A model generated the notes under the pieces. It did not search any database. It saw only the letters and a list, made by a program, of their open reading frames with translations, and was not told the origin of the DNA. 64,000 nt of DNA from Paraburkholderia phytofirmans OLGA172 (GTDB lineage Bacteria; Pseudomonadota; Gammaproteobacteria; Burkholderiales; Burkholderiaceae): positions 2,108,001 to 2,172,000 of the forward strand of contig NZ_CP014578.1 in NCBI RefSeq assembly GCF_001634365.1, in the 5' to 3' direction. Positions 51,104 to 62,577 of this stretch are shown piece by piece. The position numbers and the translations under genes are program-made. Every line of letters begins with the position of its first letter. Position 1 is the first letter of the stretch.

Positions 51104-51762
51104 TACGCTTTCTCCACCACGTAGCCGATATTGCGCACGGTTCTGATCAGCTTGGCGCCGAGCTTTTTGCGCAGGTTGGACACATGGACCTCGATCGCGT
51201 TACTTTCGATTTCTTCCTGCCATCCATACAAACTCTCTTCGAGGCGCGAGCGCGACTGGGGAATGCCCTGGTTGGTCAGCAGTTGCATCAGGATCGCCCA
51301 TTCACGCGAGGTGAGCGGTACGCGCATATTGCCGATTTCGACGGTTTGCGCGGCGGGATTGACCGTCAGATCCTGATAGCGGATCAGCTCGACGCTGCGC
51401 CCTTGTGCGCGGCGCAGCAGGGCCCGGCAACGGGCAATCAGTTCGGTCAGGTCGAAGGGCTTGCCGAGATAGTCGTCGGCGCCGGCTTCGAGGCCGCCGA
51501 CGCGGTCCGCCACCGTGCCTCGCGCGGTCAACACCAGCACCGGCACGTCTTTGCCGGCATCGCGCAGCCGTTTCAGCAGTTCCATACCCGATACCCTGGG
51601 TAAGCCGAGATCGAGCAGCACCAGCGCATAGGCGGTAGTATCGAGGGCGAGACTGGCCTTGTGGCCGTCGCGTGCCCAATCGACCGTGAAGCCGGCCTGA
51701 CGCAGTCCCGCTTCGATGCCGCAGCCGATCAGGTCGTCGTCTTCTACGAGGAGTACGCGCAT
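51103..51762 (-). CDS. OmpR-family response regulator, QseB/PmrA type
   Basis: The 219-residue product has a receiver with phospho-acceptor D51 ('LVLLDLGLP') and the switch region 'DDYLGKPFDLTELIARCRAL'. A winged-helix domain ends 'ESNAIEVHVSNLRKKLGAKL', typical of the QseB/PmrA/TctD branch. The ATG at 51762 gives the canonical 'MRVLLVEDDD' start. It is divergent from the second hopanoid operon, and a PmrA-like box lies between the two, 119 bases upstream of this ATG. Confidence 0.94.
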   Translation of the reverse strand: MRVLLVEDDDLIGCGIEAGLRQAGFTVDWARDGHKASLALDTTAYALVLLDLGLPRVSGMELLKRLRDAGKDVPVLVLTARGTVADRVGGLEAGADDYLGKPFDLTELIARCRALLRRAQGRSVELIRYQDLTVNPAAQTVEIGNMRVPLTSREWAILMQLLTNQGIPQSRSRLEESLYGWQEEIESNAIEVHVSNLRKKLGAKLIRTVRNIGYVVEKA

Positions 51763-51863: not shown

Positions 51864-51913
51864 TTTATACCGCTTTCTTCCTTAAGGTTTCCTTCAGCTA
51901 GAATCGCTACTAT
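51864..51913. promoter_or_regulatory. divergent promoter sharing one PmrA/QseB-like box
   Basis: The central box is CTTAAG-GTTTC-CTTCAG (51881-51897). Rightward, a ten-base gap leads to TACTAT (51908-51913). Leftward, reading the minus strand, CTGAAG-N5-CTTAAG is followed by an 11-base gap and TATAAA (51869-51864). One bound dimer could thus serve both the two-component operon and the second hopanoid operon. Confidence 0.75.
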
Positions 51914-54705: not shown

Positions 54706-57700
54706 TCAAATAGCCTGCTTCTTCATCAACAACTTCAACACCACAGGCAAAAGCAACAACACCAACGGCAACTGCACAATCAACCCGGAAATAATGGCGA
54801 CCGCCAAAGGCTGCTGCATAGCCGCCCCTTGCCCGAGGGCAAACGCCAGAGGCAGCAGCGCGAGAATAGCTGCAATAGTGGTCATTGCAATCGGCCGCAA
54901 CCGATTCCGCCCAGCCGCGATCAGCGCCTCCTCAAACCCAACACCTTCATCCCGAATCAACCCCTGCAGCTCCGATACATAAAAAATCGCCACCTCAGTC
55001 ACGATACCGATAATCATCGTCATCCCCATCATCGCGGAGATATTCAACTCGATACCGGTGATCCACAACCCGATAAACACCGCGCCCGCGGCCAGCAACG
55101 GCATCGCCATCACCGCCAGCGCAACGCGGAAGCGCTCGTACAAAAACAGCAGCAACCCAAACACCAACGCAATCGCAGCACCAAACACGGTCAGCAAACC
55201 CTTGAAAGCAATCTGCTGTTGCTGGTACAAACCACCCAACTCGTAATAGACGCCAGTCGGCAACAAGCTCTTGTCGCTCAGCGTCTTCTGTACATCCGCG
55301 ATCGTCGAGCCCAGATCGCGACCATCGATTCGCGCCGTCACGGCCACCATCCGCTTGAGATTGTCGCGGCTGATTTCCGGCTGACCAGTCACCGCCACCT
55401 GATCGGCGACTCGATTCAGCGCGAACAGATGGCCGTCCGGTGCGCGAATCTGCAACTGCCCCAGTTGCGTATCGGTCAGCTTCAAGGCACCGGCCACGCG
55501 TACCCGCACGCCCACTGTCTTCGGTCCGCTCTGGAATTGCGTCGCAATGTTGCCTTCCACCATGTCGGACGCGGCCTGCGCAATCGACTGCGGGTCCATG
55601 CCCTCGGCCGCCGCGGCCTCCGGCCGGATGTGCAATTCGAGCGCGTCGCCTGCCGGGTTGATGCCGTCGTTGACGTCCACCACGCCCTGAATCTTGCCGA
55701 TCTGCGCGGCGACCTTGCGCGCGGTGGTGTCGAGTGTGTTCTGGTCGTCGGAGTAGATCTTGATCTGGACCGGCTGCGGCACCGCGGTCAGGTCGCCGAT
55801 CAGGTCTTCCATCAGTTGCGCGAGTTCGATGCTCACGCCGGGCACCTGCGTCTCGACCTTCGAACGGATCTCTTCCATCACCGTTTCGATCGGCTCACGG
55901 CCACCCGACTTCAGCCGCACGAAGAAGTCACCCTTGTTAGGCTCGTTCAGGTCGCCGCCGAGACCGGCGCCGGTGCGGCGCGAGTAAGTCGCGACGTTCG
56001 GATTCGCGCGGATGATGCCTTCGATCTGCTTCATCAACCGGTCGGTTTCGGTCACCGACGTGCCCGGATTGGTGTGATAGTCGAGCACGAAACCGCCTTC
56101 GTCCATGCTCGGCATGAAACCGCTGCCCACCCGCGTGAACGCGAACGCAGCCACCACGATCAGCGGCAGCAGGCCGAGCAGCACGAGAGCCGGGCGCGCC
56201 GTCACGTGTTCGATCAGAAAGCCGTAACGCCGGTTCATCCATGAGGCGAAGCGGGTTTCCTTGTGCTCTTCAGCGTCTTTGGGCTTCAGCCAGCGGTCGC
56301 ACAGAATCGGCACCGCGAGCCAGGTGACGAGAAATGAAATGAACAGGGCGCTTGCCATCGTCACCGAGAGCGCCTTGAAGAACGCGCCCGTCACGCCCGA
56401 CAGAAACGCGAGCGGCACAAAAATGATCAGCGTCGCCGCCGACGACCCGGCAAGCGGCCGCGTGAATTCAAGCGCCGCCGTCATCACGCGGCCATGAAAC
56501 TTGTGCGCCCCGCCTTCGCGCATGCGTCGCACGATGTGTTCGATCATTACGATGGCGTCGTCGATCACAAGGCCGACCGCGGCGGCCATCCCGCCGAGCG
56601 TCATGATGTTGAAGCCCATGCCGAACACGTCGAGCAGCAGGATCGTCGCGGCCATCACAACCGGCACCAGCGCGACCGCAATCGCCGTGATCTTCCAGTT
56701 GCGCAGAAAGGCAAATAGTGTGAACGCGGCCAGCACCACGCCGATCATGATCGCGTCGCGCACGCTGGTCGCCGAGGCGATCACCAGTTCGCTCTGGTCG
56801 TACCAGTTCGAGAGATGCACGCCGGCCGGCATCTGATGCTGGAAGTCGGCGAGCTTCGCGCGGATCGCCTTGGCCATTGCCACGCTGTTCGCACCGGGTT
56901 GCTGGTAGACGTTGAGCAGCACCGCGTCCTGGCCGTCTGCCGTGACGCGCATCCATTGCGGCACGACGCCCTGATGGACTGTCGCGATGTTGCCGAGGCG
57001 GATTTGCGTCGCGCCGTTGGCCGACACCACCACGTTGCGCAGTTCGTCGAGTTGCGTGATCGTGGAGTTGGCAATCACGAGGTACAACTTGTAGTGATCC
57101 TCGATACGGCCGGTGGCCATCAGCACGTTGCTCGCGCCGATCGCTTTCGACACGTCCGGGAGCGACACCTTGTAGGCTGCGAGGCGCGCCGGATCGATCG
57201 CGACTTCAAATTCGTCCTGCGCGCCCCCCGTCACTTCGACGCGCGCCACGCCTTCCACCGACGACAGCAACGGCCGCATCTGGAACTGCGCGAGATCGCG
57301 CAGCGCAGACAACGACTGCTGTTTCGACGTCAAGCTATACGCGAGCACCGGGAACACGGTCGGGTCCATGCGCCGCACCTGCATCGAGGTGCCCTGTGGA
57401 AGCGTCGCGAGGATCTCGCTGATCGCCGACTGCGCCTGCAACGTGGCTTGTGCCATGTCGGTGCCCCAGTCGAAATTGATCGAGATTTCCGCCGATCCGC
57501 GGCTCGTAGTCGATTCGACGTCGCGTACGTTCGGCACGCGCCGCAGCGCCTCTTCGACCGGCATCGTGACTAGCGTGGCCATCTGTTCGGCGGGGCGGTC
57601 GCCCGCGTCGAGCGAGACGACGGCGCGCGGAAACGCGACGTTCGGGAACAGCGAGATCGGCAGGCGAAACGCGGTCAGTGCGCCCGCGATCGCCAGCAGC

Positions 57701-57756
57701 GCGATCACGAACAGCAGCGAGCGCCGGTGCTTCTGCATCCATTGACCGAAATTCAT
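54706..57756 (-). CDS. RND-family efflux transporter, inner-membrane pump
   Basis: The 1016-residue product has the RND plan: 12 membrane helices and two large periplasmic loops. The proton-relay pair in helix 4 is in 'VGLVIDDAIVMIEHIVRRM', and loop 1 begins 'SLFPNVAFPRAVVSLDAGDR'. It belongs to the hydrophobe/amphiphile side of the superfamily rather than the metal pumps. The ATG overlaps the adaptor-gene stop (ATGA). It is the last gene of the OMF-adaptor-pump operon. Confidence 0.93.
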   Translation of the reverse strand: MNFGQWMQKHRRSLLFVIALLAIAGALTAFRLPISLFPNVAFPRAVVSLDAGDRPAEQMATLVTMPVEEALRRVPNVRDVESTTSRGSAEISINFDWGTDMAQATLQAQSAISEILATLPQGTSMQVRRMDPTVFPVLAYSLTSKQQSLSALRDLAQFQMRPLLSSVEGVARVEVTGGAQDEFEVAIDPARLAAYKVSLPDVSKAIGASNVLMATGRIEDHYKLYLVIANSTITQLDELRNVVVSANGATQIRLGNIATVHQGVVPQWMRVTADGQDAVLLNVYQQPGANSVAMAKAIRAKLADFQHQMPAGVHLSNWYDQSELVIASATSVRDAIMIGVVLAAFTLFAFLRNWKITAIAVALVPVVMAATILLLDVFGMGFNIMTLGGMAAAVGLVIDDAIVMIEHIVRRMREGGAHKFHGRVMTAALEFTRPLAGSSAATLIIFVPLAFLSGVTGAFFKALSVTMASALFISFLVTWLAVPILCDRWLKPKDAEEHKETRFASWMNRRYGFLIEHVTARPALVLLGLLPLIVVAAFAFTRVGSGFMPSMDEGGFVLDYHTNPGTSVTETDRLMKQIEGIIRANPNVATYSRRTGAGLGGDLNEPNKGDFFVRLKSGGREPIETVMEEIRSKVETQVPGVSIELAQLMEDLIGDLTAVPQPVQIKIYSDDQNTLDTTARKVAAQIGKIQGVVDVNDGINPAGDALELHIRPEAAAAEGMDPQSIAQAASDMVEGNIATQFQSGPKTVGVRVRVAGALKLTDTQLGQLQIRAPDGHLFALNRVADQVAVTGQPEISRDNLKRMVAVTARIDGRDLGSTIADVQKTLSDKSLLPTGVYYELGGLYQQQQIAFKGLLTVFGAAIALVFGLLLFLYERFRVALAVMAMPLLAAGAVFIGLWITGIELNISAMMGMTMIIGIVTEVAIFYVSELQGLIRDEGVGFEEALIAAGRNRLRPIAMTTIAAILALLPLAFALGQGAAMQQPLAVAIISGLIVQLPLVLLLLPVVLKLLMKKQAI

Positions 57757-58880
57757 CGCGGCGCGCCTCCAGTAGCCCGCACCGCCATGCCGTCCGTCAA
57801 CTCATAGTTGCCGCTGACGACGAGGCCTTCTGCGCCGTCGATCGGACCATCCACGCCGTAGCGGTCGCCGTTTTCGACCTGCGTGAGCACCGCCACGCGG
57901 CGCGCCTTGTTTTGCGGCGTGATCTGGAATACGTATGCGCCTTTGTCGTCTTTCAGCACGGCGGCACGCGGCACGACCCAATGCGTGCCGCTGCGAGTCG
58001 CGATATCGGCGCTGACATGCGTGCCCGGAATGAACGCGCTCTGTCCGAGCGGGACGTTCGCGCCGATATTGACGAGCTGGCTTTGCTGATCGACCGATGC
58101 CCCGACCAGCACCACGTGACCGTCCACCGCGGCCTTCGCGAGCGAGGTGGACAGGCCGTGCAGCGTGACCGTGTCGCCGGCACGGATAGCGGGGACGTCA
58201 GACGGCTCCACGCCGAGCATCACGTTCGCGCGCGCATCGCGGCCATTACCGCCGGCCAGTTGCAGGATCGCGGCGCCGGCCTGCACCTGATCGCCCTGGG
58301 CCGCCGATACCTGCAAAACGACGCCGTCGATCGGCGCCGCGATGACTTTGTTGCCGCTCGCGACCCCCGTCTGGTTCTGCGCGGCGAGCGCCTGCTGCGC
58401 GTCCTCCGCGGCCTTGCGGGCGGCGGCGAGTTGCGATTGTGTGGCAAGCCCTTGGTCGTACAGCGATTGCGTGCGCGCGAGTTCGCCTTGCACCAGCGTC
58501 ACGGCGCTTTTTGCCTGGGTGGTGGCGAGCACCGCGGCCGGGTCCGCTTGCACGACGAAAAGCGGCATGCCGCGCGTCACGCTCTGGCCGGCTTGCACGC
58601 GCATCTGCACGATACGCGCGAGGTACGGCAAATTGACCGTGGTCAGGTTCGACGCGGATGCCGCGACGATGCCATAGGCGCGTACCGGCTGCGCGATGAC
58701 GGTACGCTGCACCCGTACGGTTTGCACGGATACGACGGCTTGGTCGGCGGCATCGTCGCCGGCGGACGCACTGGCTGCGCTGGCCGCATGGACGGCGGCG
58801 CTCATGAGCGCGACGCAGGCAAGGGAAATCGCATATGAGGCGATGCGCGGCCGCCGTGCCGACAGTGGGCTATTTCGCAT
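57753..58880 (-). CDS. RND efflux periplasmic adaptor subunit
   Basis: The 375-residue product has a signal-like N-terminus, a biotinyl-lipoyl motif split around a coiled coil ('IVQMRVQAGQSVTRGMPLFV' then 'VLQVSAAQGDQVQAGAAILQ'), and the beta-barrel and membrane-proximal domains ('GAYVFQITPQNKARRVAVLT'). It bridges the pump and the outer-membrane channel. The ATG lies 11 bases inside the outer-membrane channel gene. Confidence 0.92.
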   Translation of the reverse strand: MRNSPLSARRPRIASYAISLACVALMSAAVHAASAASASAGDDAADQAVVSVQTVRVQRTVIAQPVRAYGIVAASASNLTTVNLPYLARIVQMRVQAGQSVTRGMPLFVVQADPAAVLATTQAKSAVTLVQGELARTQSLYDQGLATQSQLAAARKAAEDAQQALAAQNQTGVASGNKVIAAPIDGVVLQVSAAQGDQVQAGAAILQLAGGNGRDARANVMLGVEPSDVPAIRAGDTVTLHGLSTSLAKAAVDGHVVLVGASVDQQSQLVNIGANVPLGQSAFIPGTHVSADIATRSGTHWVVPRAAVLKDDKGAYVFQITPQNKARRVAVLTQVENGDRYGVDGPIDGAEGLVVSGNYELTDGMAVRATGGAPR

Positions 58881-60360
58881 GAGTTTCGGTGAAGTTCTGT
58901 GCAGAGGAAAAGGCGTCGGGGATCGTGCTGCCGAGCAGCGCCTGCAAGCCGACGCGTTGTTCGGCGAGCGATTCGCGCAGCGCGGCGACGTCGACACGTT
59001 TGGTGAGCGCGGCGCTTTCTGCATCGGTATAGGCGCCGAGCACGAGGTTGTGCTGAGCGTAGGCCGCGGCCGCATGTTGCGCGGCGCGATCGACATCGGG
59101 CAGCGCGGCTTCGGTCTGCTGCAACTGCCGCGTGAGAATCACGCCGTCCGCACGCAGATGGGCGACATCGGCATACGCCTGGTTCAGGCGCGACTGATAT
59201 TCATCGCGCAGGCGCTGACGTGTCGCTTTTTCGATCGCGACGTTGCCCTGGTTACGATTGAAGATCGGCAGGCTCAGATTGATCTGGAAGCCGCTGGTGT
59301 AAATGTTCGAGGTGTCGCGCGCGCGGACGAAACCTACGGAGAGGCTTGGGAACTGGCTGAGAATCGCCGCGCGGTATTTCTGCTCCTGCGCTTCATAGCC
59401 CGCTTGCAGTGCGATCAGGTCCGGGCGGCGTTGGGCGAGTTTGGCCAATGCTGCGTCGAGCGTCGCGTCGGGCAGTTCGATCGCGTCGTCGCTGCCGGCA
59501 AGTTGCAACTGCACTTCGGGTGAGAGGCCGAGCAGCGCGTTCAGATCGTGATGAGTCTGTTCCGCAGCCCGTTCGGCGTCGGTGTACTGCTTGCGTGCGT
59601 CGCTGTATGCGGTGAGCGCCGCGGTCAGCGTGTCGTCGGTCAGATTGCCGTCGCGGTGCGCTTCGGCCATGCGCTCGTAGCGCGTGCGCGCGAGGTCGCG
59701 CTGCTGTTGCAGCAGCGGCAGCGTGTCCTGCTGGAAGCGCGTCTTGATGAACAACTGCCGCGCCTGGGCGACGATCTGCCATTCCTGCCACAGCAGGCCG
59801 AGATCGGTCTTGGCCACCGTCGCGTCGGCGGATTGTTTGTTGGCGCTGCGCAGCACGATCGCCATCACGTCGATGCTCAAACCATAATTGAACGCGCGCG
59901 TGAAGCCTTCGGCGCCGGGATAGTCGCTCGCGACGCTCAGTTGCGGGTCGGGCAGCAGTCCGGCTGAATAAGCCTGCGCCCGGGCGATGCCGAGGTCGTC
60001 GCGAGCCAGCTTCAGGTCGGGATTGTTCGCCACCGCCAGCATGGCGACTTCGTCGATGTCGAATCCGTCGGACGGATCGAAACGATGCGCGGCCAGCTCG
60101 GGCAGCGGCATGGTCGACGGATCGATCTGGATGCGTTCGAGCGAACGGGCCGAGGTCGACGTATCCTGCGGCGCGAGTGGTTCGCGGTGATACCACGCGC
60201 ATCCGCCGAGCAGCATCGCGCAAATTGGCACCAGCGCGCGCAACCGTGCTGCGGGGGCGGCCGCCGATCTGGCCGCAAGCGAGGCGGCCAGACCGACCGG
60301 TCGCCTCGCTGCTGAGCAAGCCGCTGAAATGGCCGCTGCGGCGGCGTTGAAAACGGGCAA
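58870..60360 (-). CDS. TolC-family outer-membrane efflux channel (lipoprotein)
   Basis: The 496-residue product has an N-terminal Ala-rich region leading to a lipobox LLGGC near residues 50-54 and two copies of the outer-membrane efflux domain with long helical hairpins ('NNPDLKLARDDLGIARAQA' and 'QRRPDLIALQAGYEAQEQKY'). The lipobox is later than usual, so the TTG start at 60360, chosen for GGAG upstream, may be too early. It heads the efflux operon. Confidence 0.9.
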   Translation of the reverse strand: MPVFNAAAAAISAACSAARRPVGLAASLAARSAAAPAARLRALVPICAMLLGGCAWYHREPLAPQDTSTSARSLERIQIDPSTMPLPELAAHRFDPSDGFDIDEVAMLAVANNPDLKLARDDLGIARAQAYSAGLLPDPQLSVASDYPGAEGFTRAFNYGLSIDVMAIVLRSANKQSADATVAKTDLGLLWQEWQIVAQARQLFIKTRFQQDTLPLLQQQRDLARTRYERMAEAHRDGNLTDDTLTAALTAYSDARKQYTDAERAAEQTHHDLNALLGLSPEVQLQLAGSDDAIELPDATLDAALAKLAQRRPDLIALQAGYEAQEQKYRAAILSQFPSLSVGFVRARDTSNIYTSGFQINLSLPIFNRNQGNVAIEKATRQRLRDEYQSRLNQAYADVAHLRADGVILTRQLQQTEAALPDVDRAAQHAAAAYAQHNLVLGAYTDAESAALTKRVDVAALRESLAEQRVGLQALLGSTIPDAFSSAQNFTETHAK

Positions 60361-60419
60361 ATCCGGCTCCTGAAAAAAAGGTGAGGCAGCCGCGAGCGGA
60401 CGTCGCAGAACAGGTGCCG

Positions 60420-60547
60420 ATTCTGCTCATGGAGAGCTTAAGGAACGCTTAACCGGAATTTAAGCGTCCGATAAGCCTCCCTTCAGCGTCGCCTAAGCTT
60501 CTCTTAAGGAGGACATAAGGAAGCGTTAAGCTAACGGGCTGGACAAT
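60420..60547. promoter_or_regulatory. divergent promoter with nine 11-bp-phased CTTAAG-like half-sites
   Basis: Hexamers start at 60437, 60448, 60459, 60470, 60481, 60492, 60503, 60514 and 60525, an exact 11-base period: CTTAAG, CTTAAC, TTTAAG, GATAAG, CTTCAG, CCTAAG, CTTAAG, CATAAG, GTTAAG. Rightward, 11 bases lead to GACAAT (60542-60547); leftward, 11 bases lead to CAGAAT (60425-60420). This matches PmrA-type promoters with the site overlapping the minus 35 element, but with nine half-sites instead of two. Confidence 0.85.
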
Positions 60548-60574
60548 GCCGGCAAACTGGAGAGAGGAGAGACC

Positions 60575-61234
60575 ATGCGTCTGCTACTCGTCGAAGACGA
60601 CGACATGATTGCGGAGACGGTATTGGGCGCAATGCGCCGTTCGGGCTACGCGATCGACTGGGCCGAAGACGGCCGCGCGGCAGAGTTGTCGCTGGGTAAC
60701 GGCGTCTACGACCTCGTGCTGCTCGATCTTGGCTTGCCGAAGAAGGACGGCATCGACGTGCTCAATGCCTACCGTAAGAGCGGCGGTGCCGCGCCGGTGA
60801 TCATCCTGACTGCGCGCGATGCGGTCGACGATCGGATTCGCGGCCTCGATGCGGGCGCCGACGATTATCTGATCAAACCATTCGACCTCGACGAGCTGGC
60901 CGCGCGGGTGCGCGCGCTGTTGCGGCGGCGCACCGGCCAGAAGCAACCCATCTATGCGCACGGCGAACTCACACTCGATCCCGCGGCACACGAAGTCACC
61001 AAAAGCGGCGCAGTGCTGCCGCTCGTGCCGCGCGAGTTCGCCTTGCTGCAGGCGCTGATCGAAGAACCCACGCGCGTGTTCACCAAGGCCGAGCTGGAAG
61101 AGAAGTTATACGGCTGGGGCGAAGAGGTGGGCAGCAACACCATCGAAGTGCACGTGCACAGTTTGCGGCGCAAGATCGGCGCGGAGCAGGTGGTGACCGT
61201 GCGCGGCGTGGGCTACCGTCTGAAGAGGTGCTGA
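60575..61234 (+). CDS. OmpR-family response regulator, PmrA/QseB type
   Basis: The 219-residue product has a receiver with D51 ('LVLLDLGLPKKDG') and switch 'DDYLIKPFDLDELAARVRAL'. A winged helix ends 'NTIEVHVHSLRRKIGAEQVV', the PmrA/QseB/TctD branch. GGAGAGAGG precedes the ATG. It is divergent from the RND efflux operon across the half-site array, which implies that it controls both itself and efflux. The kinase gene overlaps by one base (TGATG). Confidence 0.95.
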   Translation: MRLLLVEDDDMIAETVLGAMRRSGYAIDWAEDGRAAELSLGNGVYDLVLLDLGLPKKDGIDVLNAYRKSGGAAPVIILTARDAVDDRIRGLDAGADDYLIKPFDLDELAARVRALLRRRTGQKQPIYAHGELTLDPAAHEVTKSGAVLPLVPREFALLQALIEEPTRVFTKAELEEKLYGWGEEVGSNTIEVHVHSLRRKIGAEQVVTVRGVGYRLKRC

Positions 61235-62577
61235 TGACGTCGATTCGCCGCTGGCTGCTGGGCTGGCTGATTTTCGGGCTGGCCGCGGCTTCGGGCGTGG
61301 CGGGCTTCGGCATCTTTCACACCGCGCGCGAAGAAGCGAGTGAACTGTTCGACTACGAGCTGCGCACGGTGGCGCTGTCCTTGCCATCGAACCTGGCCGG
61401 TGCGAGCGACGGCGAGCATCGCAATCCCGACCTGGGCGATCTGGCCGACGATCGGGTCGTGATCGAGATCTGGGACCGGTCTGGCGAGCTCATTTATCAC
61501 TCGATGCAGGCGCCGGTATTCTCGCGTTTGCCTGCGGGCTTCAGCACGGTCAAGCGCGGCGAGAATCATTGGCGCGCGTTCGGGTTGGAACAGCGCGACC
61601 GTTATATCCAGGTTGCGCAGCCGATCTCCGTACGCGAAGACCTTGCGCTGCAACTGGCGCTGCATACGTTGTGGCCGCTCGGTGTGCTGGTGCCGGTGAC
61701 GATCGTGCTGGTGCTGTTGGTGGTGGCAAAGGGGCTGGCGCCGATCGGCGGGCTGACGCGCGCGCTGACGACCCGGTCGCTCGATTCGCTGGAGCCGCTG
61801 CGTCTTGACGGCACCGTGCCGGTCGAAATCAAGCCGCTGGTGGGAGCGCTCAATGATCTGCTGCAACGCCTGAACGTTGCTTCGCAGGCGCAGCGCACGT
61901 TTATCGCCGATGCCGCGCATGAGCTGCGCTCGCCGCTTGCCGCGCTGAAGCTGCAACTGCAGGCGGCTTCCCGCGACGGCTCGTTAAAGGGCGAAGGGCA
62001 AACGCTGGAGCGCGTCGAGGGGCGGGTCAACCGGATCATTCACCTGGTGCAGCAGTTGTTGACGTTGGCGCGTGAGGATGCACATCCGGTGACGTCGATG
62101 GTGTCGGTGAGTTTGCGCCGCATCGGCGAGCAGGCGGTGGGGGATTTTTCGCTGCTCGCGGAGACCAAGGAGATCGATCTCGGGCTCGAGTGTGAAGACG
62201 CCCGTGCGGACTACGATGCTTATACGGTACTGGCTGAGCCGCATGGGATGAGTGTGTTGCTGGGGAATCTGATCAACAACGCGATCCGGCATACGCCGCG
62301 GGGCGGGCGTGTAGATCTGATTCTGAAGCGCTCTGGCGAGCGGGTGGGGTTTGACGTGGTGGATAGCGGGTCCGGGATACCGGAGGCTGAAATCGAGCGG
62401 GTTTTCGATCGGTTTTATCGCGGGGAGGAAGCCCAGGGCGAGGGCAGCGGGCTTGGGCTGGCGATTGTGGCGCGGATCGCCGCGCGGCATCAGCTTGGGC
62501 TTTCCTTGCGGAATAATGTTGGGCGGAGTGGTTTGTGTGTTTCGGTTTTTGGCCTGACGGCGTTGGGCTTTCCTTGA
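61234..62577 (+). CDS. sensor histidine kinase of the efflux-linked two-component system
   Basis: The 447-residue product has helices at about residues 5-27 and 150-170 flanking a periplasmic sensor of about 120 residues. HisKA ('DAAHELRSPLAALKLQLQA') and an ATPase domain ('LLGNLINNAIRHTPRGGRVD', 'GSGLGLAIVARIAARH') follow. The ATG at 61234 shares its A with the regulator stop. By family it senses an envelope signal such as cations, antimicrobial peptides or efflux substrates; which one cannot be read. Confidence 0.92.
   Translation: MTSIRRWLLGWLIFGLAAASGVAGFGIFHTAREEASELFDYELRTVALSLPSNLAGASDGEHRNPDLGDLADDRVVIEIWDRSGELIYHSMQAPVFSRLPAGFSTVKRGENHWRAFGLEQRDRYIQVAQPISVREDLALQLALHTLWPLGVLVPVTIVLVLLVVAKGLAPIGGLTRALTTRSLDSLEPLRLDGTVPVEIKPLVGALNDLLQRLNVASQAQRTFIADAAHELRSPLAALKLQLQAASRDGSLKGEGQTLERVEGRVNRIIHLVQQLLTLAREDAHPVTSMVSVSLRRIGEQAVGDFSLLAETKEIDLGLECEDARADYDAYTVLAEPHGMSVLLGNLINNAIRHTPRGGRVDLILKRSGERVGFDVVDSGSGIPEAEIERVFDRFYRGEEAQGEGSGLGLAIVARIAARHQLGLSLRNNVGRSGLCVSVFGLTALGFP

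Follow-up and report, generated by a model that had tools for sequence, protein, structure and literature searches.

Nine PmrA-type half-sites in 11-bp register between a predicted RND efflux operon and neighbouring two-component genes of Paraburkholderia phytofirmans OLGA172

The window analysed here is a 64,000-nucleotide stretch of Paraburkholderia phytofirmans OLGA172 (NZ_CP014578.1, positions 2,108,001 to 2,172,000), in which predicted genes for an RND efflux pump run leftward and genes for a response regulator and a histidine kinase run rightward. This supports an earlier sequence-only reading, in which the region between them was taken for a divergent efflux and two-component promoter. 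The features of the locus are as follows (window coordinates):

54706..57756, minus strand: RND transporter of the AcrB/AcrD/AcrF family (similarity)
57753..59096, minus strand: periplasmic adaptor protein (profiles; longest frame, start uncertain)
58870..60360, minus strand: outer-membrane efflux protein (similarity; start codon uncertain)
60420..60425, minus strand: leftward -10-like hexamer CAGAAT, 11 bp off unit 1 (1 change at 6 sites in 7 species)
60437..60530, no strand assigned: array of nine half-site hexamers in 11-bp steps (sequence and chance tests)
60437..60453, minus strand: units 1 and 2, predicted pair serving the pump promoter (leftward), minus-strand reading GTTAAG-N5-CTTAAG (sequence, relatives, orientation matrix)
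60459..60508, plus strand: units 3 to 7, additional half-sites in the middle (NHTMAG), specific to the lineage and under selection (substitution counts, core letters)
60514..60530, plus strand: units 8 and 9, predicted pair of the rightward (regulator) promoter, CATAAG-N5-GTTAAG (sequence, relatives, orientation matrix)
60542..60547, plus strand: rightward -10-like hexamer GACAAT, 11 bp off unit 9 (0 changes at 6 sites in 7 species)
60575..61234, plus strand: PmrA/QseB-like response regulator that presumably reads the array (profiles, solved relatives)
61234..62577, plus strand: histidine kinase, QseC-like by its best profile, which is below cut-off (profiles)

The nine CTTAAG-like hexamers described in that reading were confirmed to the base, starting at 60437, 60448, 60459, 60470, 60481, 60492, 60503, 60514 and 60525 in exact 11-bp steps, and reading CTTAAG, CTTAAC, TTTAAG, GATAAG, CTTCAG, CCTAAG, CTTAAG, CATAAG and GTTAAG from unit 1 to unit 9 (two exact CTTAAG; the other seven differ by one or two letters). 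The 11-base gap and -10-like hexamer proposed for each end are likewise in place, with 60531-60541 preceding GACAAT (60542-60547) on the rightward side and 60436-60426 preceding CAGAAT (60425-60420) on the minus strand. The proposal that the sites share one helical face holds for neighbouring units and fails for the nine together: PmrA-bound DNA has a reported mean twist of 35.5 degrees (PMC4660055), so that 11 bp exceeds one turn by ~30 degrees (our own arithmetic) and the whole series winds round the helix. When scored with a matrix built from the half-sites of loci without an adjacent regulator, units 4, 6, 8 and 9 were better matched rightward and unit 2 leftward, with units 1 and 7 palindromic and units 3 and 5 neutral, the simplest reading of which would be a pair oriented leftward opposite as many as seven half-sites oriented rightward. 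The array combines features of two kinds of operator, i.e., the CTTAAG-like hexamers with 5-bp separation of PmrA-type operators, and the more than two tandem 11-nt direct repeat units of multi-unit OmpR-family operators of the PHO-box kind. PmrA-type operators have one pair per promoter; here a pair stands at each end, and a further five half-sites separate the two.

A chance origin of this arrangement is ruled out by simulated and shuffled sequences. The best 11-step chain of TTAAG-like pentamers reached a score of 13 at the array, periods from 6 to 17 other than 11 gave scores of at most 6 anywhere in the 64-kb window, the maximum over 60 simulated first-order Markov sequences of 64 kb was 4, and 1000 shuffles of the intergenic region gave no score as high as that of the array, whichever period from 6 to 17 was used. 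A known structured RNA was likewise rejected for 60300-60640 (no Rfam match up to an E-value of 1), and neither a consensus sigma-70 promoter nor a terminator was found in 60340-60600. Across the genome itself, looser patterns were not over-represented: triplets of half-sites in 11-bp register, at most three mismatches being allowed, gave 201 matches (682 for the reversed pattern), and the two-box module with one mismatch allowed gave 7 (12 reversed). Only the exact module stands out, with three matches in this genome, two of them at the pump locus, and TAAG-N7-TAAG-N12-ANAAT was matched 47 times in 14 whole genomes vs. twice for its reverse, 28 of the 47 being the two boxes of the pump locus as assigned by sequence and spacing.

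As for the presumed reader, the regulator encoded beside the array had been called PmrA/QseB-type, and these are indeed its nearest profiles, although it scores below both curated cut-offs (243.7 bits for PmrA, cut-off 330, so not an orthologue by that standard; 233.7 bits for QseB, second best, cut-off 345). Its nearest full-length solved relatives are PmrA/BasR, which on profile and structure together makes PmrA/BasR the most similar family. Base contacts reported for Klebsiella PmrA involve Thr187, Asn188, Val192, His195, Asn196 and Arg210 (PMC4660055), and by our own reading of the alignment four of the six are identical here and two are Ser. The base-reading helix, SNTIEVHVHSLRRK, is identical in all 34 rows compared.

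Known systems resemble the array in part. The QseB site is a CTTAA repeat, and QseC is the best profile for the kinase; the likeness ends with a regulator below the QseB cut-off and an RND pump as the target here. Half-sites reported for PmrA are CTTAAG or CTTAAT, followed after 5 bp by XTTAAT or CCTAAG, and it is established that activated PmrA binds both half-sites of one pair (PMC3973317). The PmrA (BasR) box, e.g., that of Klebsiella and Salmonella pbgP, has the same CTTAAG-type hexamers head to tail and 5 bp apart (PMC3973317), but is described there as one pair, whereas nine half-sites face two promoters here. Operators with several 11-nt direct repeat units, variable in number and organisation, are established for Pho regulators (PMC4415409, PMC2605767), and the PHO boxes of PhoB and PhoP (E. 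coli ugp, Streptomyces complex operators) thus share with the array both an OmpR-family regulator and 11-nt direct repeats, although the motif and the regulator are different. The principle of a several-unit operator is therefore not new, and with multi-repeat operators already known for this protein family the array is best seen as a long, evolving variant of it. DzrR, homologues of which occur in Burkholderia, and AdeR are OmpR-family regulators that switch RND pump genes as proposed here, each described with a single pair of another motif (CTCCAT twice; a 10-bp repeat twice; PMC10052836). Direct repeats one helical turn apart also lie between two phage promoters, pR and pL, as the site of Apl of phage 186 (PMC7498355), an unrelated protein and hence an analogy rather than kin. 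In the open-licence literature that we searched, we found no PmrA-type regulator described with such an array.

To place the array among its relatives, we used the best 80 of 241 candidate stretches, which contained 78 loci carrying a related outer-membrane gene, most of them from Paraburkholderia, Caballeronia and Burkholderia; those with a regulator match made up 43 rows (42 loci and the window). Both boxes (half-site, N5, half-site, N11, -10-like hexamer, the gaps being imposed by the search) were recovered in 37 of these rows, counting two Pandoraea loci whose rightward box is doubtful (L098, L108), and the remaining six (L050, L060, L071, L091, L097, L104) gave no inter-box distance. At loci without an adjacent regulator orthologue, a half-site pair still occurs upstream of the outer-membrane gene in 24 of 39 cases, with a -10-like hexamer at N11 (again imposed) in 23 of the 39. 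This recurrence suggests that the canonical PmrA-type pair is the basic operator and that the array is an addition between two such pairs. The earlier assignment to a PmrA/QseB operator stands as far as the half-sites resemble those reported for PmrA, with the recurring unit being the pair at each promoter.

Period and number, which the sequence-only reading proposed to compare across related strains, behave differently: the period is mostly kept, and the number of units between the pairs varies, down to none. The distance between outermost half-sites ranges from 11 bp (four Caballeronia loci) to 108 bp. Of the 37 rows, 22 have an exact multiple of 11 and 12 miss one by a single base, so that 34 are within 1 bp of a multiple and 3 are further off. 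Among distinct distances, 7 of 15 are multiples of 11 (binomial p 0.0002, a guide only since the rows are related), the other periods from 7 to 15 being unremarkable. On a tree of the regulator and outer-membrane genes this distance changes at least 17 times, including single-unit differences between L043 and L045 (88, 77), L065 and L066 (22, 33), and L035 with L036 and L034 with L095 (87, 76); other close pairs differ by 2 bp (L049/L052), 9 bp (L055/L094) or 12 bp (L042/L046). Loss of the 11-base register in close relatives, which would have spoken against the earlier reading, was found in part: six of 15 array species (L032, L034, L035, L036, L038, L095) carry a single 10-bp step, always at the junction of units 2 and 3, and the register is otherwise kept on either side of it. 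Unit totals are odd as well as even among relatives, which is at odds with a simple dimer tiling. In group C, the boxes lie 76-78 or 99 bp apart with no half-sites between, and since these related species keep the same genes the middle sites are not essential. When compared residue by residue, no position separates the regulators of the 15 array species from six group-C regulators, and a regulator change accompanying the arrays was therefore rejected; together with the invariant helix, this suggests a change in DNA only. In four Caballeronia loci (L063, L064, L068, L074), a single CTTAAG-N5-CTTAAG pair is set 11 bp away from the -10-like hexamer on either side; one site thus seems to serve both divergent promoters, and their simultaneous use looks impossible there.

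The genome also encodes paralogous regulators, with 62, 51 and 49% identity to the one at the pump locus. The closest is followed by its kinase gene and then by a DegP-like protease gene, and 11-bp repeats lie between that kinase gene and degP (L006; C1, about 3873340-3873470). The half-site pair before degP is identical in this genome and in 11 of 14 relatives; the remaining three have variants of it. Upstream of it this genome has seven extra 11-bp half-sites, the near-identity of which points to a perhaps recent expansion, and nine of the 14 relatives (L031, L033, L034, L035, L036, L043, L061, L095, L096) have two to four such units, at a distance of 32 bp to the pair (43 bp in one relative), with none in five. 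Each of these nine carries eight or nine units at the pump operator; in L066 the pump has four and degP none. The degP layout is not identical to that of the pump operator, as its pair is followed by a conserved TACGCT or similar at N10 and has no -10-like hexamer at N11. Within the window, the gene of the 49% paralogue (51112-51762) has CTGAAG-N5-CTTAAG-N11-TATAAA upstream of it (51864-51897, minus strand), in the same one-pair layout.

Evolutionarily, the middle units do not behave as their spacers do. For seven species with exactly the layout of the window, chosen after the arrays had been seen, the hexamers of units 3 to 7 had 10 changes at 30 sites vs. 36 at 30 in the flanking spacers (p = 0.00035, column permutation on the seven-species tree), and their rate of 0.33 changes per site was also lower than the 0.69 of four-fold synonymous sites in the regulator gene (110 sites, p = 0.017). 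Positions 3, 5 and 6 of the hexamer, a subset picked post hoc, had no change at 15 sites, and positions 1, 2 and 4 alone did not clearly differ from spacers (p 0.06). Not every spacer is free, since the one within the rightward pair had no change at 5 sites. Across the 15 array species (group A, likewise chosen after seeing the arrays; L042, a sister of L046 with no array, was placed in group B), and in a frame set from the rightward box alone, all 70 middle units (45 distinct ones) had T3, A5 and G6, and position 4 was only ever A or C. The corresponding middle frames had T3, A5 and G6 in 10 of 29 cases in one of the two other groups and in 2 of 26 in group C. By these comparisons, selection is keeping the cores of the middle half-sites while their spacers drift.

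Several other explanations have to be set against these data. Were the array a neutral minisatellite, an 11-bp slippage repeat containing the motif by accident, motif and spacer would be expected to diverge alike, which they do not. Neighbouring spacers do resemble each other, suggesting 11-bp duplication as the likely source of new units, and the genome has other 11-bp repeats, one of which behaves as neutral. This repeat lies before an M48 protease gene (L001, about 1495-1540, four TTTAAGCCGGG copies; the gene on its other side is oligoribonuclease-like) and reads TTTAAG four times here, while in 14 relatives that motif is found once (L143) and the others have TTTGAG, TTTGGG and similar. With the motif lost in relatives the M48 repeat is probably neutral; it was rejected as a third operator and used as a contrast. 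Set beside it, the clearly different hexamer and spacer rates and the invariant core letters of the pump array contradict neutral origin, which we regard as very improbable. A phased spacer, in which only the end pairs act and growth by whole units, moving the promoters apart in full turns, makes room for two polymerases to bind together, would suit both the Caballeronia loci with one pair for both -10 hexamers and the group-C boxes held apart without half-sites between, but it leaves unexplained why T3, A5 and G6 survive in middle units amid drifting spacers, and appears decidedly unlikely.

Two further alternatives accept that the middle units are bound. These units might be a decoy store that soaks up regulator and sets a threshold or noise level without acting directly on a promoter, in keeping with the regulator gene adjoining the array and with selection on half-site cores, which fits any use of binding; a store of this kind would have no need of an 11-bp register between two boxes, and we think it improbable. 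The array might instead be a shared platform, on which paralogous regulators read the extra half-sites and several two-component systems feed into the pump. The existence of the three paralogues speaks for this, as do their overlapping motifs, similar pairs being found at the gene of the 49% paralogue and at degP behind the 62% one. The middle units, however, carry the motif of the end pairs, and this option also seems unlikely.

On balance, the array is probably an extended operator of the adjacent PmrA/QseB-like regulator, whose end pairs would activate the two promoters and whose middle sites would join them cooperatively. Each end pair lies 11 bp from its -10-like hexamer, approximately where a -35 element would be, and the phosphorylated regulator would occupy these pairs and activate the pump operon and its own operon, with further protomers binding side by side on the middle sites and joining both pairs cooperatively. 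Unit number would then be a setting moved stepwise by evolution, changing the strength and the joint firing of both promoters. The anatomy of the array, its register, the selection on it and its mostly stepwise change are evident from the sequences; binding by the adjacent regulator, its cooperativity and the activation of both promoters are what we infer from them. Against this reading stand the below-cut-off profiles, the relatives that retain the genes with no middle half-sites, the mixture of odd and even unit totals, the one-base slip fixed in six species, the differences of 2, 9 and 12 bp, and the several paralogous regulators that could read the sites.

Most likely, the array grew by 11-bp duplications, is kept by selection and links two promoters, and it probably tunes a divergent switch. 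A more speculative extension, which we consider possible though rather doubtful, is that the operator is an evolvable counter, in which protomers would fill phased half-sites from two opposed boxes and merge into a nucleoprotein stretch joining the divergent promoters, with the coupling reset as species gain or lose single 11-bp units. This would have been done twice in the lineage (at the pump, and at degP of the paralogous system), and array and non-array groups are not told apart by any residue of the pump regulator. The array presents a case of regulatory evolution proceeding by countable steps: natural operators have 2, 3, 4, 6, 8 or 9 half-sites in one register, and 8, 9 or 10 with one 10-bp step. 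With the same recognition helix throughout, these unit counts offer a ready series for relating half-site number to the strength, sharpness and coupling of two promoters.

Beyond the pump locus, a similar-looking site is found in 7 of 14 relatives for the only other exact two-box module in this genome, L111 1501-1532 (C2:1546156-1546187), which lies ~200 bp before a gene for a DUF4118 protein.
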